A stretch of 21,105 nt of DNA, from IMG/VR virus record IMGVR_UViG_3300032278_000144, positions 1-21,105 of that record; one strand, 5' to 3'. A program made the translations under genes and the position numbers. This document shows positions 4,035-20,979 of the stretch, in pieces; positions within the stretch are counted from its first letter, which is position 1, and each line of letters begins with the position of its first letter. The notes below the pieces were generated by a model that was not told where the DNA came from, made no database searches, and saw nothing but the letters and a program-made list of their open reading frames with translations. The DNA comes from a virus.

Positions 4035-7000
4035 TCAAACTAAACCTGCCCCTTCTAATACTTTTGAAATCATACGTGGATCCGTTCCTCCTAAAAGTAC
4101 CATCATTGCGTAGGTAAAGTCTAAATTTTCTGGTGGTGGATTAGCAGCGCTGGTTAATTTTTTCCTTATCATATCAGTTCCACCGGTTGCAGGAGGAATC
4201 CAAAGAAAATATATTCCAGCATCTACGATTCCTAATGTTATTAATTCCAAAAATTCTTCCATCATTTTTAATATTTTTTCTAATTTTGGTATAATTTTTT
4301 CTTCAATAAATTCAACCAATTCTTCTATTTTTTTAATTAAACCTGAACCAATTCCCTTTAATCCTTCTAAAAAATCTATTATTACTTCCAAAAAACCTCT
4401 AAGTCCAGGTATCATATCTTCTACATTATAACTCCAAAAATCAGGATAAACAGATTCAGGTAGATCTTCCTTTTTAGAAGTATTCTTATTAACCGCCCTA
4501 ACAGAACAAACTCTTGGTGCGGGAAGATTGGCGCTACCTTGATTTCTCCAGTTAGGAAGCCATAGATAACCATCTAACACAGCTTCAAAATATCTCAACA
4601 TATCAACATTCATGTCTGAGGGATTTAAACCAGACCCCTCTAATATCATTGCTGCGGCATACGCGCTTTCTTCATCCGTCAATTCATCCAACTCGTCTGG
4701 TTCTGGAGGATCTTTAGTTGGATATACTCCATCAGGATCATCAGTAGTTAATTTCATTAAAGCATTTTTCCATATCCTTTCTCCTTGAGGATCTGGTCCA
4801 CCAGACCATTTTAAATATGCCGCCTCCATTGGATTACCTGACTGCAATCCCCCCGCATCTTTGTCTGTATTAGCTTGCACATTTCCCCAAGCTATAGTAG
4901 GACGTCCTATTTTATCTACTTCCTTCATTGATTCAAGATAATCAATATATGTATCCTGGTGCTCTTCCTCTAAAGCATTAGATTTGGAATTTGCATTAAC
5001 AAGATCGACTTGTAAAGCTTGAATTTGATCCTCAAATCTGCTATGTTTGGATGCTATCTCTAATTCTAAAATCACAAGTTCTTGTTCAATTTTAGTTGCA
5101 CGCGCTTCCAACTCTTGTATTTTTGTTTGTTCTTCTTGTTTTAACTTCTCAGTAGTATTAATAGTTACTAGTTCTGCCTGTATCCATGCGTTATATTTTA
5201 CGACATCTGCAGGCAAGGGAAGAACAATATGAGCCAATTTATTTGCTTCTGTTGCATCATCAAGAATTTTTTGTGCTGAACTTTTCTTTGTTTTTAATTC
5301 GTCTCTTTCTTGAGTTATTTCTGCATAAGTTTCATCATCTTTTAATGCCTTTTGAACCAGAAGTGTAGTTGATTGTTCTGTAGCATAATTTTTAGCACCA
5401 GTGGCTGAATCAGCTTCAGAATTTTCATTAGCTTTCAATTCTATATATTTTAATTTGTAAGATTCATTATATATTTCTTTTGCCTTTGATGTTTCATAAT
5501 CTAATACTTCTTGCTCTTTATTAGTAAGGTCTGTTATTAATTCATTTAAATCTTCTTCTGCGTCTATTTGTTTATCTTGTGATTCTTCTACGTCAGCCTG
5601 ATCCTTTGAAAAATTTTCTAATTCTTTTGATTTTTGTCTCTCAAACAATGACATTTGTTTTTCTGATTGTTTAATCGTATCATTCAATCGTATAATCTCA
5701 CTTTTTCTGTCACCAATTTGATTTTGTACTCCCTTCAGTTCAGCTATCTTATCATTTTTTTTATCCATGCTGATCAGTTGTGCTTCACTAACGTCGAAAC
5801 TTCCCCCAATAGAGCCTGAAGTTTTTAACCCCTCTATTTTACTTTCAATTGATTTAATCAATTCTTCTTGTTCTGATCTTGCAGACTTCACTTTATTAAC
5901 AGAAGCTTCCAATCTCTCACGTTCACTCGATGATTCATCTTTTGTCAACGGTCGGTTATATGTCAATTCTTCATCATATTTTCCTTCTTTCATTTTATTA
6001 TTATAATATGAATATAACTCCAATTGTTTTCCAGCTGATTCTTGATTAGCTTTCCAGAATCTTATTTCCATAATTCTCTTCATTATATCTTCTTTTTGAT
6101 CATCTTCCCCAAATATTTTTGTTCCATTTTTTAATACAAAGGAATTCAAAATCTTAAATGCGTCACCTCCGCCTGGATCAGGTTTCGCCTCTTTCCCCTC
6201 ATCATCAAGTTGACCCATTCGATCATCAAGTTCGACCTCAACTAAAATATCACCAGGTCTAGTATTTGGAAATATGGACTCATGTAAAACATCAATCACC
6301 TGTTCATATCTTACTGTTTGTCCTTGAGTAAACATAGATATACTAGTTTCTGCTGCAACAGCATTCACGCCAGGAGTAATATGTTCATACCATTCCGCGT
6401 TTGATGTTTCATCAGTTCCCATAGTTGTCGGAGCATTAAATTGTCTCGCCGTTTCAGTTGAAAGTATTTGCATCGTTTCACGAGTTCTTAAATTTTTAAA
6501 AAATACTTTATCATCCTTATTGGAATTGATGTCATAACCTCTTCTTCTAAATTTTTCTTTATTATCACTATTTGTTCCTATTTTAAAAATACCTCGATCT
6601 GCCTTTAGGTTTGATTTTTTCCCAGGTTTTATAGGCCACTTTTCTATTGGTGGATTTATATTGCCAGGATTAGGTGCACATAAATTTGTAACAATAATCT
6701 TCTCTTCTCTTAAAGCATCCAAATCTTCCGTTAATTCTCGAGCTATATCCATCGCATCTTTAAGAGGCCTTATATCCGCAAAATAATTATAAAGTTTCGC
6801 TATTTTTCCTAATAATTTAGCTGGATCTGTTACACCAAGAAGAATTATTAATGCTCCGGCCATATTACCTCCTGATATTGACGGCCTACTCACATCTCCT
6901 TTATCATCAAAAGCGGCATTCATTATTTCTATCATTTTACTTGGTTTACAAATTTGCATTTGTCCGCCCATTTTCCATAAATAATCTTCTAAATTAAGAT

Positions 7001-7736
7001 CAAGATATTCTCCTCCCGTTTTATCTAAAACTGGTTTTCCTTGAGCTGATCCAGATACTCCAGGTATAGCTCTATTATAAAAAACCTTCCCATTCCAAAT
7101 TACATAATTTTTATGATTATTTTCAAATTGTTGCCAAGTACCTGCTGCCTCAGGCCCCTCTAGTGCATGTTTTGGATCTACATCAGCACCCATAAAGAAA
7201 CCTGCATCGGTTGCAAGCTCTTCCCCCGCTTTCAATTTATCAATATCAATAATTGGGTGGGCTGAAAATTCAATTCTATTCGTAAATGGATTAACATAAA
7301 TTCCAGCTGTTTTTATTTTCTTTAATCGAATTTTTGGTGTTCTAGCTTTGACACCATAGACTGATAATTTTGGATTTTGACCATCAATGAACAAAGTATA
7401 TATTCCTGATCCCATTAAATCATCAATTTGTCTTTGAACCTCCGAAATCATTTCATCTAGAATTAAAAATAATGGATTTATTGCTGCAATAAGAAAAACT
7501 TTATTTGCATTCAGCAATGTCTTACCAGTTTCCATTGCTGATTTATATGCTGATATCGTTTCTGTTACATTTTCTATCAGTGGTTCTAAAAGCTGGGGAG
7601 TCTTAACACTTGCCGCTAACCAAGATCCTTCAGCAGCAGCCTGTTTAAACAGAGCCACTCTATCAGCTGAATTTCCGTCTGTTATCGCTTGAGTTAAAGC
7701 ACTAACATCTCCACCTTTTCTAAATCTCTCAGGCAT
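4035..7736 (-). CDS. 1233-residue tail/baseplate structural protein with long central coiled coil, function unknown
   Basis: I do not recognise this protein by name. It is the largest complete gene in the window. Residues 1-130 are helical and hydrophobic in places (LLNANKVFLIAAINPLFLIL). Residues about 130-590 look globular, with many Gly, Pro and aromatic residues. Residues about 600-945 are very rich in Glu, Lys, Gln, Ser and Asp, with heptad-like spacing, as in a long coiled coil interrupted by short breaks. A mixed region with WLPNWRNQG follows. The last 130 residues hold amphipathic helices (IKKIEELVEFIEEKIIPKLE), then a hydrophobic IYFLWIPPATGG segment. Its place between hub genes and gp25, inside one operon, implies a virion part, possibly a fibrous or peripheral baseplate protein. 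The start overlaps the end of the 52-residue gene by eight bases, with GAGGAAG as ribosome site. Confidence 0.8.
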   Translation of the reverse strand: MPERFRKGGDVSALTQAITDGNSADRVALFKQAAAEGSWLAASVKTPQLLEPLIENVTETISAYKSAMETGKTLLNANKVFLIAAINPLFLILDEMISEVQRQIDDLMGSGIYTLFIDGQNPKLSVYGVKARTPKIRLKKIKTAGIYVNPFTNRIEFSAHPIIDIDKLKAGEELATDAGFFMGADVDPKHALEGPEAAGTWQQFENNHKNYVIWNGKVFYNRAIPGVSGSAQGKPVLDKTGGEYLDLNLEDYLWKMGGQMQICKPSKMIEIMNAAFDDKGDVSRPSISGGNMAGALIILLGVTDPAKLLGKIAKLYNYFADIRPLKDAMDIARELTEDLDALREEKIIVTNLCAPNPGNINPPIEKWPIKPGKKSNLKADRGIFKIGTNSDNKEKFRRRGYDINSNKDDKVFFKNLRTRETMQILSTETARQFNAPTTMGTDETSNAEWYEHITPGVNAVAAETSISMFTQGQTVRYEQVIDVLHESIFPNTRPGDILVEVELDDRMGQLDDEGKEAKPDPGGGDAFKILNSFVLKNGTKIFGEDDQKEDIMKRIMEIRFWKANQESAGKQLELYSYYNNKMKEGKYDEELTYNRPLTKDESSSERERLEASVNKVKSARSEQEELIKSIESKIEGLKTSGSIGGSFDVSEAQLISMDKKNDKIAELKGVQNQIGDRKSEIIRLNDTIKQSEKQMSLFERQKSKELENFSKDQADVEESQDKQIDAEEDLNELITDLTNKEQEVLDYETSKAKEIYNESYKLKYIELKANENSEADSATGAKNYATEQSTTLLVQKALKDDETYAEITQERDELKTKKSSAQKILDDATEANKLAHIVLPLPADVVKYNAWIQAELVTINTTEKLKQEEQTKIQELEARATKIEQELVILELEIASKHSRFEDQIQALQVDLVNANSKSNALEEEHQDTYIDYLESMKEVDKIGRPTIAWGNVQANTDKDAGGLQSGNPMEAAYLKWSGGPDPQGERIWKNALMKLTTDDPDGVYPTKDPPEPDELDELTDEESAYAAAMILEGSGLNPSDMNVDMLRYFEAVLDGYLWLPNWRNQGSANLPAPRVCSVRAVNKNTSKKEDLPESVYPDFWSYNVEDMIPGLRGFLEVIIDFLEGLKGIGSGLIKKIEELVEFIEEKIIPKLEKILKMMEEFLELITLGIVDAGIYFLWIPPATGGTDMIRKKLTSAANPPPENLDFTYAMMVLLGGTDPRMISKVLEGAGLV

Positions 7737-7887
7737 CGTTTTCTTCCTCAGTTTCTTTTAAAGTATCCACTTCTTTTTTCAAACTAACAATAGTTCCTTT
7801 TACAGTTTTAATCAAAGATTCTAATTGATTAACCATTGGATTTGGTGGTAATTCCTCTTCAGTTGTTTTCCATTTATTAGTTTCCAT
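7729..7887 (-). CDS. Small 52-residue acidic helical protein, function unknown
   Basis: A short minus-strand frame starts at the ATG at 7887 and ends with a TGA at 7729-7731. It begins MET NKW and has a proline break (ELPPNPMVNQ) at residues 11-20. A predicted helix with leucine/isoleucine/valine spacing follows (LESLIKTVKGTIVSLKKEV), then an acidic tail (EEEN). A very good GGAGGAG ribosome site precedes it. It overlaps the end of the 863-residue gene by eleven bases and the start of the 1233-residue gene by eight bases, so it fills the only gap between those two genes exactly. That tight packing and the strong ribosome site are why I call it real. The helix could pair with a helix of the neighbouring coiled-coil protein, or it could be a small assembly factor. 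Neither role is shown. Confidence 0.75.
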   Translation of the reverse strand: METNKWKTTEEELPPNPMVNQLESLIKTVKGTIVSLKKEVDTLKETEEENDA

Positions 7888-10468
7888 AATATTTACTCCT
7901 CCCTTTCAACATATCATATTCATTTCTTTTATCTCTAACTTCTTTATATTTAAACTGTAAAGAGTCTGCCTCTGCTACAACTTCATTAATTAACCCTATA
8001 TCATCACCTAAAGCAACATTTACCGCTTCATATATTGTTCTTCCATAAGGAACCAATGTCCCTGAAGCTTTAGCGGGAAGAGCTGAAACTCTTATACCAG
8101 GTGGGGAAATTGCAGCATTAATATCCCCACCAACTGATGGGCTTCCTGTATAAGTAGGATTTCCAATTCTAGCATTGAGTTCAGTTAGTCTTGTACCTAT
8201 GTCTGCATTACATGCATCTAATTCATCTGCTAAAGCAGTAGCATCCGTTTTACTATATGTTCGACCATCATAATTTTGACCATGATAAGTATCCAAATCA
8301 TCAAATTCAGCTTTGCAATCGGAAATCGCAGTATCAAATGTTTCCGCCGCCGTTTTCTTTGCTGCATCATATTCTCCTCCCCCGTCAACTTCTAAAAGAG
8401 GATCTCTATAAGATACTAATCCATCTAATGTATTAATTTTTCCTAGTACATATGGATAATCATTAGATGCTCCACCCTCATCTCCATTTATTATATGTTG
8501 AATATCATTCTCCAAACAATCTACTTCACTAATAGCATAAGTAATAGTGTGTCCATATGGGGGATTGCCAAAAGGTCCTCCGTAGCTACCTGAAAAAGAA
8601 TGTGCTTCTATCAAGCTCGCCGAATTTTTCCAATACATGGTAACACTAGTATATGTTTCTGTTGAAGCTGTATTAATGTTTTTACTATCTGCAACACCCC
8701 AAGTGAGGAATTGTGAAGAATATGTACCCCAATGACCCGCATATCCTGCATTAGTGGGCACGGTTCCTGCATTTGGGTGTTCTTTATTTTCCGCATGGCC
8801 GCCCGTAGAAGTTACTGAGTCTGTTCCATTAGAAGCACTGTTCAAACTCCCCGCCAAACTTGTCATTGCGGGTTGTAATTGTGGAGTGAATGTTGCTTGT
8901 GGTTCTGTTCCTCTAGCCGTTTCAGTATTTGGTAATGAAGTAACTGTTGGAGTATAATTATGAGCTCCCACAAATGGACTCACCAAATAAAAAAAATGAG
9001 CACTGAAATCTATCATATATCGATAATCACCAATCAAATTTCCAGCAGTATTTTTTCTTTTTTCTTCATATTTTACAAACCTTCCCGCAAATACATCTTT
9101 CATCCCCAATCCAGTCGGTTGTAATCCATTATCACTACTGTCATAATTATCTCTGGCTCCTTGAACAGCGGGAAAAAGTGGATTTAATACGTTACCACTA
9201 TAATCGCCCGTATCTTGTCCTATTTCTGAACTGGAGGAAACCAATTCTGTAGAAGCTGATTTAAATAAATCTAAAGAACTTGATTTCGCCGTTGGAGGAT
9301 TAAATACACTAAGAGCGGTTTCAAATGCGGATTTATCCATAACTGTTAAATCTTCAAATGATTCATTAGTTCCACCATAATTTCCATCATCATCACCAAT
9401 AGGTTTCCAGGATGAATCAGGAACCATTCCCTCAGGAACAATTTGAGCAATTGCGAACATTGTATTTTCTTCTCTTGTTGGCATAATTTGTTTTGATGTA
9501 ATCTCTAAATTAGTATATACCTTATCAACATTATCATTAAGTACTACCACATTTAAATCTGTATCAATTGCGACTACAGTAAGATTAGATGTCCATGCCG
9601 TACTTGATAATTCTGATCCCATTACTAATTTCGATGCATCAGAAGTGGTTATAGTATTTCCTGTAATATTTGTTACTAAATCTAATGTTGTATTAGCAGT
9701 TATAGTAAATGTTTCAAAATCATGAGTAAATCTTTTTAATCCAAAAAAATCTCCAATTTTAGGTGGAGAAACATCAACTTCTGCAGAACCTTGTTCTAAA
9801 GTATGAGATAAGGTAACAAACTGATCTAAGGTAGAATTAAATTCTACAGAACCGATATTAGCATATGCAAATTTTTCATTCCAGTTTCCCACTTCTGTAG
9901 TAACACTATCCCCAAATGTAACAGTGTTTCCAAATGCCATGTCGACTCCAGGATTGACATATGGAGTTGTATTAGCCATTAAATCTATTAATTTTCCCGT
10001 TTCTCTACTTCTAACAAAATAATAATCACCAATATAATTACTATAAGTATTAGACGTTCCATCCGCCTCAGTTGATGTTACGGTACTTCCAGGAGTATCA
10101 CTTAAAGAAATTGTATAATTAAGATCTTTATCTCGAATTAAAACACCGAATTTGGGGTTTCCTCCCGCTCCACCGGTTAAAGAAGGATATGTAAAAGATG
10201 TTACTCCTGCATAATCACTTGGAGAACCTAAATTAAATTTTAAAATATCACTACTACTTGCTCCCAAACAATTTGCTCTTATTTGGGCATTTGCTAATGC
10301 TAATGCAGGAACATCTACCGAAGCAGCTACACCTGCACATAAATTAGCAAACGCATCTTCAAATAATTCCAATTCTCCGATAATTCCCAATCTCGCATCT
10401 ATCAAACTTTGAGGTAGAGCTTCAATATCTTCTTTAGTTTCTAATATTTTTTCAACTTGAGATGTCAT
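7877..10468 (-). CDS. 863-residue virion protein, probably tail/baseplate periphery, function unknown
   Basis: I do not recognise this family. The first 75 residues are helical and alanine-rich. Residues about 75-300 are rich in Thr, Ser, Asn and Gly with alternating hydrophobic residues, as in beta-structured tail proteins (NTTLDLVTNITGNTITTSD near 258). A stretch about residues 480-640 is low in charge and rich in Gly, Ser, Thr, Pro and aromatics (for example GSYGGPFGNPPYGHT). The C-terminal 190 residues return to acidic helices (AAKKTAAETFDTAISDCKAE) and end in a basic KGRSKYYGN tail. The start codon overlaps the stop of the 160-residue gene in an ATGA arrangement, indicating coupled translation. 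The composition and the baseplate operon suggest a virion surface protein, possibly a fibre or spike attached to the baseplate. No receptor-binding motif is identifiable by eye. Confidence 0.78.
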   Translation of the reverse strand: MTSQVEKILETKEDIEALPQSLIDARLGIIGELELFEDAFANLCAGVAASVDVPALALANAQIRANCLGASSSDILKFNLGSPSDYAGVTSFTYPSLTGGAGGNPKFGVLIRDKDLNYTISLSDTPGSTVTSTEADGTSNTYSNYIGDYYFVRSRETGKLIDLMANTTPYVNPGVDMAFGNTVTFGDSVTTEVGNWNEKFAYANIGSVEFNSTLDQFVTLSHTLEQGSAEVDVSPPKIGDFFGLKRFTHDFETFTITANTTLDLVTNITGNTITTSDASKLVMGSELSSTAWTSNLTVVAIDTDLNVVVLNDNVDKVYTNLEITSKQIMPTREENTMFAIAQIVPEGMVPDSSWKPIGDDDGNYGGTNESFEDLTVMDKSAFETALSVFNPPTAKSSSLDLFKSASTELVSSSSEIGQDTGDYSGNVLNPLFPAVQGARDNYDSSDNGLQPTGLGMKDVFAGRFVKYEEKRKNTAGNLIGDYRYMIDFSAHFFYLVSPFVGAHNYTPTVTSLPNTETARGTEPQATFTPQLQPAMTSLAGSLNSASNGTDSVTSTGGHAENKEHPNAGTVPTNAGYAGHWGTYSSQFLTWGVADSKNINTASTETYTSVTMYWKNSASLIEAHSFSGSYGGPFGNPPYGHTITYAISEVDCLENDIQHIINGDEGGASNDYPYVLGKINTLDGLVSYRDPLLEVDGGGEYDAAKKTAAETFDTAISDCKAEFDDLDTYHGQNYDGRTYSKTDATALADELDACNADIGTRLTELNARIGNPTYTGSPSVGGDINAAISPPGIRVSALPAKASGTLVPYGRTIYEAVNVALGDDIGLINEVVAEADSLQFKYKEVRDKRNEYDMLKGRSKYYGN

Positions 10469-10947
10469 GCTGGTGGTCCTGTTACTACTACTGGTGGTGA
10501 ACCAGGAATCATTGCTGTTATTACTATTTGTGTTGTATAATTATTTATCGCATCTGCAATATCTGAGCCAAATTGTGCTCCAGATGCTGGCTGTTTTGAA
10601 AAAATTTTACCCATTTTTGTTAAAAACATTGGAAGACCCGCTGTCGTTACTATAGAAATTTGGTTTGAACATTGTAATGTCATAAAAGCTCCATCAATTT
10701 TCTTCGCAACCTTTTGCCCTATCAGTGCTGGTATTGGTGATTGCTTTTGCATAATTTTCCCTATTTCTAAATTTAATGTTTGTAATTTCGGCATAGCTGC
10801 GTAATTTCCCCCAGCCGGATCCATTGCATTAGAAATATACTGTTCTACTCCATCCTTAATTATCTTCCCTACATCTAATCCTGTTGTATTAGCTTTTGCG
10901 AATCCGGATTGTAATCCTGCTTTTATTTGTGGCATTCCTAAAGGCAT
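10465..10947 (-). CDS. 160-residue protein between gp5 and the unknown virion genes
   Basis: The start at 10947 has an AAGGAC ribosome site and lies seven bases after the gp5-like gene. The protein is Gly-, Ala- and Ile-rich with few charges. It contains predicted helices around residues 20-45 and 55-90 and a hydrophobic C-terminal segment, and ends with a proline-rich PPVVVTGPPA tail. It shares an ATGA overlap with the next gene, so the two are probably made together. Being immediately downstream of gp5 suggests a partner or assembly helper for the spike or hub. It has no obvious PAAR repeat or metal-binding His/Cys pattern that would mark it as a spike tip. No family name can be supported. 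Confidence 0.72.
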   Translation of the reverse strand: MPLGMPQIKAGLQSGFAKANTTGLDVGKIIKDGVEQYISNAMDPAGGNYAAMPKLQTLNLEIGKIMQKQSPIPALIGQKVAKKIDGAFMTLQCSNQISIVTTAGLPMFLTKMGKIFSKQPASGAQFGSDIADAINNYTTQIVITAMIPGSPPVVVTGPPA

Positions 10948-16786: not shown

Positions 16787-17360
16787 TGGAAATTTAGTAG
16801 ATATTTTACAAGATGTGATAAAAAGGAAAAAAATTCCGCAAGAAAATATAAAATCTGCTCAATGGTTACAAAATAAAATTAGAAATTTTAGAAGAAATTT
16901 AAATGTTAAATTAGATGACTCTAGTATGACCGCTGATCAGTTTATGGAAGGGTCTAATTTGATACAAAAGAGAAGAATGACCAAAGCTAGATTAACATTA
17001 TTCTCATATAAGGCAAAACATGAAAAAACTTTACCATATTATGACAGATTTCCTTTATCAATGATCATAAGTAAAGAAGTTGACGGATTTATAGGATTAA
17101 ATTTTCATTATTTACCATATCAACATAGAGCAAGACTATTAGATGCTGTTGCATTTGGAAATATAATTAATTGGAATACATTAAAAAGAAATAAAGTGAC
17201 TCGCCCATGTATTAAAAGATATTTAATGAGTCATGTTCAAGGAGCAAATGGTATGGTAATAGAAGGAATTGAACAATTAAAATTTGCAATATTTTTACCA
17301 ATAGAACGGTTTAATACCAGAAAAGAAAAAGTCTGGGAAGATTCACAAAGGATAATATAA
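16764..17360 (+). CDS. Conserved-looking 198-residue phage protein of unknown function
   Basis: I do not recognise this protein with certainty. It is basic, beginning with a helical region (residues about 10-60), followed by KARLTLFSYKAKHEK and then a striking central block: LPYYDRFPLSMIISKEVDGF running into IGLNFHYLPYQHRARLLDAV (about residues 90-130). The YYDRFPL and GLNFHYLP motifs look like a conserved phage family signature that I have seen near structural genes. The C-terminus (about 150-198) has RPCIKRYLMSH and ends in a basic helix. A GAAGGA ribosome site before 16764 decides the start, and the gene overlaps gp4 by 23 bases. Its stop and the next ATG share one base (TAATG). In T4 the neighbour of gene 4 is gene 2 (DNA end protector), so a head- or neck-related role is possible but not shown. 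Confidence 0.78.
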   Translation: MAETPKNSGNLVDILQDVIKRKKIPQENIKSAQWLQNKIRNFRRNLNVKLDDSSMTADQFMEGSNLIQKRRMTKARLTLFSYKAKHEKTLPYYDRFPLSMIISKEVDGFIGLNFHYLPYQHRARLLDAVAFGNIINWNTLKRNKVTRPCIKRYLMSHVQGANGMVIEGIEQLKFAIFLPIERFNTRKEKVWEDSQRII

Positions 17361-18034
17361 TGCCAGCAGGATTTAAACAAGCAGAACATTTTATCGCAGC
17401 GATAAACAAACATAAAGGCCCCGCGAAGGCAAACAAATATCTATTTTTAGGTCCATTTTCAAGTGGCACAGGAGCACTTGTGGAAAATCTTGCCACCGCA
17501 TTGAGGGTTAATTTAAAAGATTTTAAATTTTTGTGTGATGCAACAAATTTACCTGGGCGGAACTTAGCGACCGTAGAATTTAGAACAGGTAGTGTATCTA
17601 GGTCATATATTCACTCTAACAATTTTAATCCAACAATTAATTTATCTTTTATATTAACAGATGACATGTTTGTTAAAAAACTTTTTGATGCATGGATGGA
17701 TGTAATCATACCCCTCACTGATGCAGGACTTGATGGTAATATGAAGCAAAACGTGAAGCTCTATCCCAATGATTATTGTGGAACTTTTGGTATAAAAAAA
17801 CTTGCGTCGAACTTATCTAGTAACGTGACTGACGGTTCTACAATTTCAGATGATTATCATGTAGAAATAATGGAAGCATTTCCCAAACAAATTAATCCTG
17901 TTGCATTAACTTACGGTTCTCAGGATATATTAAAATTACAAGTCGTGATGGCTTATTCCCGGTGGAGAATAATACGAAATGCTGGAATCGGTGAAGGCCA
18001 AGGATTCCAAGGTCATGATCAATTCGGCCTTTAA
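17360..18034 (+). CDS. 19: gp19-family tail tube protein
   Basis: The 224 residues follow the tail tube fold. FKFLCDATNLPGRNLATVEF (about residues 53-72) corresponds to the conserved F.C.AT.LPG strand of T4 gp19. FILTDDMFVKKLFDAWMDVI (about 95-115) is the matching helix with the aromatic W. Near the end, ALTYGSQDILKLQVVMAYSR followed by W is the closing beta strands and the Y..W ending. T4 gp19 is 163 residues, so this protein is longer, with about 30 extra residues at the N-terminus (KANKYLFLGPFSS) and a Gly-rich C-terminal tail (GIGEGQGFQGHDQFGL). A gp54-type tube initiator has the same fold and remains possible. The position just before the gp26-like chaperone and tape measure genes fits either. 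Translation is coupled to the upstream gene by TAATG. Confidence 0.72.
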   Translation: MPAGFKQAEHFIAAINKHKGPAKANKYLFLGPFSSGTGALVENLATALRVNLKDFKFLCDATNLPGRNLATVEFRTGSVSRSYIHSNNFNPTINLSFILTDDMFVKKLFDAWMDVIIPLTDAGLDGNMKQNVKLYPNDYCGTFGIKKLASNLSSNVTDGSTISDDYHVEIMEAFPKQINPVALTYGSQDILKLQVVMAYSRWRIIRNAGIGEGQGFQGHDQFGL

Positions 18035-18062
18035 AATAATAATTATATAATTAGGAGATATT

Positions 18063-18791
18063 ATGGGTTTACCTAAGATTGATATTGCAACATTTAGCAC
18101 TACTCAACCTTCCTCAAAAAATAAAAAACTTACATTTAGACCATTTTTAGTAAAAGAAGAAAAAATACTAATGATGGCAATGCAGGGAGAAAATTTAGAA
18201 GAACAAATAACTGCAATTAAACAAATTATAAACAATTGTTCACAACAAGAATTTGATGTTGATACAATTCCCTTATTTGATTTAGAATGGATATTTTTAC
18301 AATTAAGAATACATTCCGTTGGAGATCAATTAAATTTAAAATTTAAACACAGAGATGGAAAAAATACCAATGATGTAGAATGTGATCATGTATCAGATAT
18401 AAAATTAGATCTAAAAGAAGTTGAAATGGTATATGATAAATCACATAATAAAGAAATTGAAATAAATGATAAAATTACTATATTTCTAAAATATCCAAAT
18501 ATAGAAACTGCGGGTAAAATCAAAAATACTGAAGATGCTGAAGGTATTATAGACTTTTTATCCTCAGGAATAGAATTTATTAAAGATGATGAAAAAATGT
18601 ATGAAACAAAAGATTTTACACAAGAAGAAATAATAGAATTTTTTGAACAATTTAATCAACAACAAATGCTTAAAATTCAAAACTTTTATCGAACTCAACC
18701 TATAATACAACATGAAATAAATTATACTTGTGAAAAATGTAGTGGAGAAGAAAATGTTATTCTTAGGGGCTTACAGGATTTTTTAGAATAA
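18063..18791 (+). CDS. 26: Baseplate hub assembly protein / tail chaperone, gp26-like
   Basis: This 242-residue protein resembles the T4 gp26 baseplate family (T4 gp26 is 208 residues): an N-terminal LTFRPFLVKEEKILMMAMQG (about residues 23-43), then IIDFLSSGIEFIKDDE-type helices, and a C-terminal YTCEKCSG with one CxxC pair followed by LRGLQDFLE. The early FRPFLVKEEKILM block is typical, and a QITAIKQIINNCS helix follows it. gp26 helps assemble the hub around the tape measure and is not a major virion part. A TTAGGAG ribosome site lies six bases before the ATG. The frame ends two codons after a slippery heptamer, so ribosomes are expected to make both this form and a longer -1 product. It lies between the tube gene and the tape measure gene, exactly where tail chaperones occur in most long-tailed phages. 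Confidence 0.82.
   Translation: MGLPKIDIATFSTTQPSSKNKKLTFRPFLVKEEKILMMAMQGENLEEQITAIKQIINNCSQQEFDVDTIPLFDLEWIFLQLRIHSVGDQLNLKFKHRDGKNTNDVECDHVSDIKLDLKEVEMVYDKSHNKEIEINDKITIFLKYPNIETAGKIKNTEDAEGIIDFLSSGIEFIKDDEKMYETKDFTQEEIIEFFEQFNQQQMLKIQNFYRTQPIIQHEINYTCEKCSGEENVILRGLQDFLE
18779..18785 (+). promoter_or_regulatory. -1 programmed ribosomal frameshift slippery site (T_TTT_TTA)
   Basis: In the gp26-like frame the codons are GAT TTT TTA GAA TAA. The last T of GAT plus TTT TTA forms the perfect X_XXY_YYZ heptamer TTTTTTA, the same as the HIV-1 gag-pol slip site. The zero-frame stop follows after one codon. In the -1 frame, a TAG at 18764-18766 closes the frame upstream, while the frame after the slip is open to 18979. 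The two frames overlap only at 18767-18791, which contains the heptamer. Confidence 0.85.
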
Positions 18792-18979
18792 CTCTTTCTC
18801 ATGATTCTTTAGAGTCTCATTTTTTGGTTAATTTCGCATTAGTCCAACATCATAAATACTCTTTAACAGAGTTAAATGAGATGATTCCTTGGGAAAGACA
18901 AATTTATATTGAATTATTAAAAAATTGGATACAAGAACAAGAAACTGAAGCTAAACAAAGAGAAGCAGAAAGAGGTTAA
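18785..18979 (+). CDS. 51: gp51-like / tail chaperone T-domain extension made by -1 frameshift
   Basis: Read from 18785 in the -1 frame, 64 codons follow before the TAA at 18977-18979. They would extend the gp26-like protein after residue 241 to give a 305-residue fusion. The extension begins RITLSHDSLESHFLVNFALV, continues with HHKYSLTELNEMIPWERQIY and ends in a helical IELLKNWIQEQE and a charged tail. The HKYSLTEL and MIPWERQIYIELL motifs match T-domain proteins of tail chaperones and the short gp51 proteins of T4-like phages. There is no start codon for the first half: the only candidates are a TTG at 18824 and an ATG at 18881, the latter leaving only 32 residues. The frame therefore reads best as a fusion extension. 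Its last base is the first base of the tape-measure ATG. Confidence 0.82.
   Translation, partial: RITLSHDSLESHFLVNFALVQHHKYSLTELNEMIPWERQIYIELLKNWIQEQETEAKQREAERG
18791..18815 (+). other. Possible stem-loop downstream of the slippery site
   Basis: ACTCT at 18791-18795 can pair with AGAGT at 18811-18815 across a 15-base loop. The stem would start five bases after the heptamer, in the usual 5-9 base spacing for -1 frameshift stimulators. Five pairs with an open loop are weak on their own, so the stem may need the second copy of the same repeats. Confidence 0.4.
18858..18872 (+). other. Second ACTCT/AGAGT hairpin in the frameshift extension
   Basis: ACTCT at 18858-18862 and AGAGT at 18868-18872 form a short hairpin with a five-base loop. 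The arms are identical to those of the stem starting at 18791, so the four arms could swap partners and make a larger pseudoknot-like fold. Confidence 0.35.
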
Positions 18980-20979
18980 TGGCACAAGCACCGAAACCAG
19001 CTGGAGGAAGACGACCAGGACAATTTGGTACAACAGAACTTCGATTAGGAAGAGCGTCTGGTATTGGAGAATTTTATGATGTTTTAGAAGACGCGACCGC
19101 CAAAAGATTAGAAAGAACTATACGTGGATATGCACACGCCGCAGTAAGTGCCGCAGTTTCCCCATTACCAGCATTTTTACAAGCTGGTATATATGATGCC
19201 GTTGCTCATCCTTTTCGTGGTAGAGAAGACGGAGGAGCTTCTCAAGAGGATGTTCCCCAAGATCCATCTTCGTCTATAACAACAAGGGGTTCTGAAGGTG
19301 CTGGTGGTATTGCTAATGATGGAGGAACAGCTGTCAGAGTAGCGACTGAAATTGGAATGGAAGGGAGTCGGATTCCGGTATGGCAAAGTAATTTAGAAAA
19401 ATTATTTAAAGTTCCCTTACCTGTTACATTTAGAAAACAAGCATTAAACTTATTAGAAACAGAAAGAGAAAAAGGACCAGAAAAAGTAAAAGAAGAAAAG
19501 AGTGAAGAAGAAAAAGAATCGTCTGGTATCTTTGGTACTCTTTTAAGTGGACTTGGTTCTATAGGAAAATTTCTATTGGGCCCTCTTTTGAAAACGTTGG
19601 GAATTATTGGATTAGGTGCTATGAGATTTGCGGGAGGTCTTGGTATTATAGGTCTAATAGGAAGTTTGGTATTTAGTAAAGAAATTGTAGATCAATTTAG
19701 ATTAGATTTTGCAAAAGAAGCGAAAAATTTGGGAGCAAATAGTGGATGGGGAGCAAGAGTAACAAAATTTCTTGGTGGTGGCACAGAAAACGGTAAATCT
19801 TTTGCTGATGCAGCTCAATTAGGTATTACCGGAGGCGCGGTCACAGGCTTAGCAGGCTTGATGGTGGGTGGACCGTGGGGTGCTTTAATCGGATTCTTAT
19901 TGGGAACTGCACTTGTTGGAGTCGGTGCAGCTTTAGGAGAAGCAAGACTCACTCAGGGTACAAATTTTATTACAACGTGGTGGGAAAAGACTTGGGATAG
20001 TGCACGAAAAGAATGGGAAAAGGCTGAACAAGTTCAACTCAACAAACAATTAGATCAATTGCAAAAAAGAAAAGAATCTGGAAAAGTCACAGGATTCGAA
20101 CTATTAAAACTTAATAAACAAATAAGAGAAACGGAAAGACTAATTTTTCAATCTAGATTACAAGAATTAAAATCATGGCAAGGGGAACTTGATAATCAAT
20201 ATGCAGAAGCTGGAGAAAGAATTAGAGTTAGTAATATGATGAGTACAAAATTGACACAACTTAGTAAGGATATAAGCAGTGCAAAAGAAGGTGAAGATAT
20301 TAATATGATTTTAGATAAATTTATGGATGAGAATTTTGGACTCATGAATCCTGATGATAAAGTAATATTTCAAGATATAATGAAAGATGTTGGGCTATCT
20401 GAAGATTCAACTAAAGATCAGGTGACTAAAGCTTTAGCCGAGAAATATGGAAATTTAGCTGGGCCGCTAGGAACTTTAATGTCGAAATTTGGTGGTAGTG
20501 ATTATTTGGTAGATGTATTTGGAGAGGGGCCTGATGCGACAAAAGAAATGACACTTGAAAGCTTAAATACTGTGATCAAGTATTTTAAGGCAAAGGAAAG
20601 AAAGGATATAGAATGGCGGAAAGGTTTAGGGGGGGGCGCTCTTGAACAGCATGAGATAGATAAAGTCCGAAAATTGTTGAAACAAGACATTAAAGATCAA
20701 AATCTCGGTTCGCTAATGCTTGATGAGTCTAATATGATAGCTCAAACGAGTAATCTTACAAACGCTTCTAATTTCGCGGATTCCGCTGGCGGGATTTGGT
20801 CAGGTATGAAACCATACACAGATGGAACTATGGGAATTAGTTCTCATAATATCGACGCATCTTCTCCAACAGTAGTATCTAATACTACTAATAGACCAAC
20901 AATAACCACCAATACTTTCGCCCAGTGGTTTAAAAATGATTCTGATAATATGAATAACCACCTTAGTTTTGTGAGTTAA
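18979..20979 (+). CDS. 29: Tail tape measure protein, gp29-like
   Basis: Position is the main evidence: it directly follows the gp26/gp51 chaperone pair, and its ATG shares a base with the end of the frameshift extension (TAATG). The 666 residues are close to T4 gp29 (590), which fills the tail tube and sets its length. The N-terminus is Gly/Arg-rich (about 1-40), followed by an Ala-rich stretch. Two hydrophobic Gly-rich segments (about 182-237 and 282-327, with GLGAMRFAGGLGIIGLIGSL) look like the membrane-active regions found in tape measures. A charged helical coiled-coil region rich in Glu, Gln and Lys runs about 335-415. The C-terminal 250 residues are mixed and end with a Thr/Asn-rich TTNTFAQWFKNDS tail. 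No lysozyme or peptidase motif is visible. Another large virion protein is the alternative. Confidence 0.75.
   Translation: MAQAPKPAGGRRPGQFGTTELRLGRASGIGEFYDVLEDATAKRLERTIRGYAHAAVSAAVSPLPAFLQAGIYDAVAHPFRGREDGGASQEDVPQDPSSSITTRGSEGAGGIANDGGTAVRVATEIGMEGSRIPVWQSNLEKLFKVPLPVTFRKQALNLLETEREKGPEKVKEEKSEEEKESSGIFGTLLSGLGSIGKFLLGPLLKTLGIIGLGAMRFAGGLGIIGLIGSLVFSKEIVDQFRLDFAKEAKNLGANSGWGARVTKFLGGGTENGKSFADAAQLGITGGAVTGLAGLMVGGPWGALIGFLLGTALVGVGAALGEARLTQGTNFITTWWEKTWDSARKEWEKAEQVQLNKQLDQLQKRKESGKVTGFELLKLNKQIRETERLIFQSRLQELKSWQGELDNQYAEAGERIRVSNMMSTKLTQLSKDISSAKEGEDINMILDKFMDENFGLMNPDDKVIFQDIMKDVGLSEDSTKDQVTKALAEKYGNLAGPLGTLMSKFGGSDYLVDVFGEGPDATKEMTLESLNTVIKYFKAKERKDIEWRKGLGGGALEQHEIDKVRKLLKQDIKDQNLGSLMLDESNMIAQTSNLTNASNFADSAGGIWSGMKPYTDGTMGISSHNIDASSPTVVSNTTNRPTITTNTFAQWFKNDSDNMNNHLSFVS

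Follow-up and report, generated by a model that had tools for sequence, protein, structure and literature searches.

Long-tailed phages share a conserved −1 frameshift of the lambda G/GT type, to which T4 has been named the exception (PMC5009743, a 2016 review), and a review of T4 counts gp26 and gp51 among the hub assembly chaperones, gp51 being needed yet not found in the particle. Vladimirov et al. 2022 (doi 10.1016/j.virol.2021.11.003) is cited in PMC10885494 for T4-like phages in which a pair of chaperone genes, one short and one long, takes the place of a frameshift, and in PMC12846349 for poly-T −1 signals in the TAC-N genes (TAC, tail assembly chaperone) of T4-like phages; the latter paper extends the argument from poly-T conservation to other phage families. 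Here, we compare with these systems the gp26-like gene of a marine phage, the virus record IMGVR_UViG_3300032278_000144, a fragment whose 21,105 bases, the whole stretch of DNA analysed, we call the window and which carries a T4-type baseplate and tail module. This single gene is predicted, with high confidence, to give two tail assembly chaperones, TAC-N (242 amino acids) and TAC-NC (305 amino acids), via a −1 programmed frameshift at T_TTT_TTA. Since these two papers already attribute short and long TAC genes and poly-T signals to the 2022 paper, the gene is of a known kind: a frameshifted T4-like chaperone has largely been described before, and the present gene is a well-supported further case. 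The original prediction for this locus had proposed, from sequence, both the −1 frameshift and its link to lambda G/GT; the comparative evidence below strongly supports these, while the idea itself was anticipated by the T4-like tail assembly chaperone genes that Vladimirov, Gautam and Davidson reported, according to the same papers.

The elements of the locus are as follows.

18053–18057, + strand: AGGAG ribosome-binding site of the chaperone gene (sequence).
18063–18791, + strand: TAC-N, gp26-like tail assembly chaperone, 0-frame product of 242 amino acids, equivalent to T4 gp26 (PF12322, phrog_150).
18764–18766, + strand: TAG closing the −1 frame upstream (sequence).
18765–18769, + strand: Shine–Dalgarno (SD)-like AGGGG, candidate stimulator, 9 nucleotides 5′ of the heptamer (anti-SD duplex comparison).
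18779–18785, + strand: slippery heptamer T_TTT_TTA, proposed −1 shift site (sequence, conservation in relatives).
18785–18979, + strand: TAC-C, −1 frame extension of 64 codons plus TAA (phrog_634, phage homologues, alignment).

What is seen directly is a conserved heptamer, coding in the −1 frame, and two predicted products that are homologous to T4 gp26 and gp51. The gene ends in GGC TTA CAG GAT TTT TTA GAA TAA, placing T_TTT_TTA in the correct phase with a single codon (GAA) between it and the stop at 18789–18791, as originally noted. The −1 frame contains no stop from 18767 until the TAA at 18977–18979 and, with TAG 18764–18766 in that frame, the extension cannot begin further 5′; from AGA at 18785, the first codon after the shift, it runs for 64 codons and ends at a stop that overlaps the start codon of the next gene, ATG 18979 (TAATG, 18977–18981), again in agreement with the first reading of the locus. 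Residues 1–241 joined to TAC-C make up the 305-residue TAC-NC, the equivalent of T4 gp51. The TAC-N body matches PF12322 (T4_baseplate) at 3.3e-50 (171 bits against a cut-off of 24.5, residues 10–241) and phrog_150 (baseplate hub) at 2.8e-54, and TAC-C matches phrog_634 (gp51-like baseplate hub assembly catalyst) at 8.2e-26 over residues 2–62. The second PF12322 gene of the two-gene T4 arrangement was not found, the 21-kb record, itself a fragment, holding one copy.

Alignment of related loci, which the original prediction had proposed as a check, supports the heptamer. The first set, in which readable junctions were scored, combined 80 IMG/VR loci with eight named relatives; a further four phages at greater distance (VmeM-32, Ah1, Mendera and Variovorax V45v66) all have the heptamer as well. 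T_TTT_TTA, T_TTT_TTC or T_TTT_TTT stands at the equivalent place in 89/89 readable loci, mostly one codon 5′ of the stop, in phages of Pelagibacter, Methylophilales, cyanobacteria, Caulobacter, Sinorhizobium, Vibrio, Aeromonas, Stenotrophomonas and Variovorax, among others. Among 35 representatives less than 80% identical to one another, it is intact in all 35, when 13.5 intact sites would be expected for the residues encoded and the codons used (log10 P −15.7 if the representatives are treated as independent, and less extreme once their relatedness is allowed for). Within the window, 60 standard slippery heptamers occur among 6,232 in-frame positions of 14 genes, four of them T_TTT_TTN and only two of the 60 in the last 40 nucleotides of a gene. 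These comparisons indicate that the heptamer at the end of the gp26-like gene is not due to chance.

Searches by tblastn recovered the body in 635 phage records and the extension in 557 (E ≤ 0.01 for the extension). In every relative compared, −1 frame homology starts at the first codon after the slip, and the extension, better conserved than the body, is 44–58% identical to relatives whose bodies are 33–39% identical. Against close relatives, synonymous bias appears only in the −1 frame (ratio 0.2–0.4 versus 0.6–2.7 in the other frames, from small numbers), which points to purifying selection on the extension.

A separate small gp51, translated from its own start or by re-initiation past the gp26 stop and never fused, is improbable. 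It would fit public annotations, which put gp51 starts near the gp26 stop or within the domain, and the ATG that overlaps the stop in Cr30, phiM12 and Vibrio D528. However, the only ATG, GTG or TTG codons of the −1 frame in the window are TTG 18824 and ATG 18881 (the M of MIPWERQ, ahead of which the original prediction rightly saw no usable start); both lie within the conserved domain, which they would cut, and neither has a clear ribosome-binding site of the kind that the gp26-like and downstream genes have. A start ahead of the conserved block is missing in 18 of the 35 representatives, window included. Further, the heptamer is conserved beyond what the residues need, and T4 gp51 is itself the fused form. 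Annotated starts also vary between related phages, often falling within the conserved domain, and are probably artefacts of an unrecognised frameshift.

Two other explanations turn on the T run itself. RNA polymerase might slip on it, adding or dropping U's, so that the long form would come from edited mRNA; all relatives do have a run of at least six T's, and transcriptional slippage also uses T runs. Yet six T's are short for it, the run is always phased as X_XXY_YYZ with Z being A, C or T and never G, and the SD-like element lies nine nucleotides upstream, an arrangement as in dnaX, where such an element at such spacing stimulates a ribosomal −1 shift; we regard this explanation as very unlikely. 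A sequencing error or a decaying gene is barely credible. A frame change that falls on a homopolymer is the textbook sign of an error, and an error in the six-T run had been named at the outset as what would undo the prediction, but the same run occurs in 6 independent, near-identical contigs and about 12 at 85–89% identity from other samples, which excludes it; the heptamer is present in every relative down to ~27–30% identity, from many laboratories, and selection on the extension speaks against decay.

Some observations weigh against a programmed frameshift ahead of a tape measure gene. The Vibrio D528 lineage retains the extension without a canonical heptamer; RNAalifold found no consensus downstream RNA pair across 28 relatives; downstream of the heptamer the window itself folds weakly (z −1.0 over 60 nucleotides, −2.0 over 100); and the open reading frame at 18979–20979 has no tape-measure family match in Pfam and PHROG profiles or by phmmer. 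Because of the missing consensus and the weak fold, we dropped a conserved downstream stimulatory RNA structure and claim none. Some individual relatives do fold strongly downstream, with z down to −5.8 over 60 nucleotides. In a subgroup of seven loci (L031, L038, L041, L044, L048, L054 and L072), a long stem (GCTGAGTCA...TGATTCAGC) begins about 8 nucleotides 3′ of the heptamer, with z of −3 to −5.8 over 60 nucleotides, and is a possible stimulator in that subgroup only.

Upstream, GAGGG or AGGGG lies about 9 nucleotides 5′ of the heptamer in most relatives. Its duplex with the anti-SD averages −5.8 across the 35 representatives, against a gene mean of −1.3 (p 6e-11) and −4.9 under synonymous resampling (p 0.0035), and the window's own element shows no significant excess over synonymous resampling (p 0.77). 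The signal is mostly forced by conserved (E/R)-G residues and exceeds the resampled value by little, and we do not advance the SD-like element as a firm stimulator.

In the proposed mechanism, the majority of ribosomes would follow the gp26-like frame to TAA 18789 and make TAC-N. At T_TTT_TTA, the tRNAs on TTT and TTA could re-pair one base back onto TTT TTT, and a minority of ribosomes would go on in the −1 frame from AGA 18785, adding the 64-residue TAC-C to give TAC-NC. Low-level slippage would thus yield much TAC-N and some TAC-NC, like gpG/gpGT (PMC5009743). We infer from sequence comparison that slippage occurs, at such an efficiency, and that the products function as chaperones; by analogy, TAC-N probably forms a coat on the tape measure protein, whose gene would lie directly downstream, and TAC-NC probably recruits tail tube subunits. 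On this basis, the ‘gp26 baseplate hub’ and ‘gp51 hub assembly catalyst’ annotated in hundreds of marine phage genomes would unite as one frameshifted chaperone gene.

The flanking genes of this module are the following.

17360–18034, + strand: tail tube-like protein of this module, encoded upstream (PF23849 7.9e-12, phrog_45 5.3e-23).
18979–20979, + strand: putative tape measure protein, 666 amino acids (position, two hydrophobic segments).

The downstream frame is read as a putative tape measure gene from its position and its two hydrophobic segments, and the HTVC008M gene in the equivalent position matches tape-measure PHROGs (8e-12). An AlphaFold model of TAC-N (pLDDT, the model's own confidence score, 87) finds T4-type hub proteins as its best viral structure matches; in the PDB, the HK97 chaperone 2ob9 ranked second, with a probability of 0.63 and a non-significant E of 0.79, and PDB sequence searches gave no match for either the TAC-N profile or T4 gp51. 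Elsewhere in the window, three structural-looking genes lie among the baseplate genes, at 4035–7736, 7877–10468 and 10465–10947 (−), of 1233, 863 and 160 amino acids, respectively, without a PHROG match at E 0.01.

The comparison also bears on T4 itself. PF12322 matches the body of both T4 gp26 and T4 gp51, and gp51 (249 amino acids) consists of a gp26-like body followed, in frame, by a C-terminal part that can be aligned to the −1 extension; by hhalign, the extension matches T4 gp51 (E 2e-4) but not T4 gp26 (E 0.61). T4 gp26 and gp51 are paralogues, with gp26 as the short form and gp51, in its entirety, as the long form. The original prediction had gp51 expressed as an extension of gp26; the fusion by frameshift is supported, whereas the extension is not the whole of gp51, the shifted product corresponding to complete gp51 and the unshifted one to gp26. 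The two genes are divergent in T4, Aeromonas 31, Ac42 and the RB49-type phage kvi and tandem on one strand in RB43, and in all five of these phages gene 26 ends without a slip heptamer. In RB43 (L096:4001-5294), the tandem gp51-like and gp26-like genes are accompanied by a gp26 end that reads G_TTT_TTA. T4-type phages have two genes where marine, KVP40/Aeh1-like and other T4-like phages would derive both forms from one.

In an unrooted tree of the body, one branch (93/93) has all the frameshift genes on the same side and another (100/99) has all gp51 on the same side, and gp26 is nearly grouped, with long branches; this fits one duplication. We lean towards the view that the frameshift gene is ancestral in T4-like phages and that T4 genes 26 and 51 arose from a single duplication, one product being kept per copy; parts of this reading have probably been published already. 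If true, it would offer a natural example of a programmed frameshift superseded by gene duplication and a testable route from recoding to duplication. The Vibrio D528 lineage perhaps represents a third route via stop-start overlap: in phage D528 (L095:4600-4850), the gp26 stop overlaps a −1 frame ATG (TAATG), and the extension may be made as a separate, coupled protein. Separately, a weak match of T4 gp26 to phrog_1140, the gp28 family (E 9e-4; T4 gp28 at L010:6349-6882), hints at a third hub paralogue.

Set beside the known systems, the locus is closest to the T4-like TAC-N/TAC-NC pair (T4 gp26 and gp51), sharing the PF12322 body family, the C-terminal extension and the short and long forms; the two-gene phages differ in splitting the forms between two genes, of which gene 26 ends without such a heptamer, where the window has a single gene and a slip site. 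With the TAC genes of Vandenendeviridae and Andersonviridae (PMC12846349), it would share a poly-T −1 shift that joins TAC-N to an extension ahead of the tape measure gene, and the argument from conservation is similar, although those are other phage families and use GTTTTT instead of T_TTT_TTN. Lambda gpG/gpGT differs in its slip sequence, sequence homology between the two is not shown and the match to the HK97 chaperone fold is weak; of the traits of a frameshifted G/GT-type chaperone, the locus has an in-phase X_XXY_YYZ near the end of the short gene, conserved beyond what the residues need, and a predicted long form in which the short form is followed by a C-terminal domain read in the −1 frame. 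T4 has been named as the exception to the G/GT rule, yet by this comparison its relatives would obey the rule, and T4 would hold both products as paralogues.
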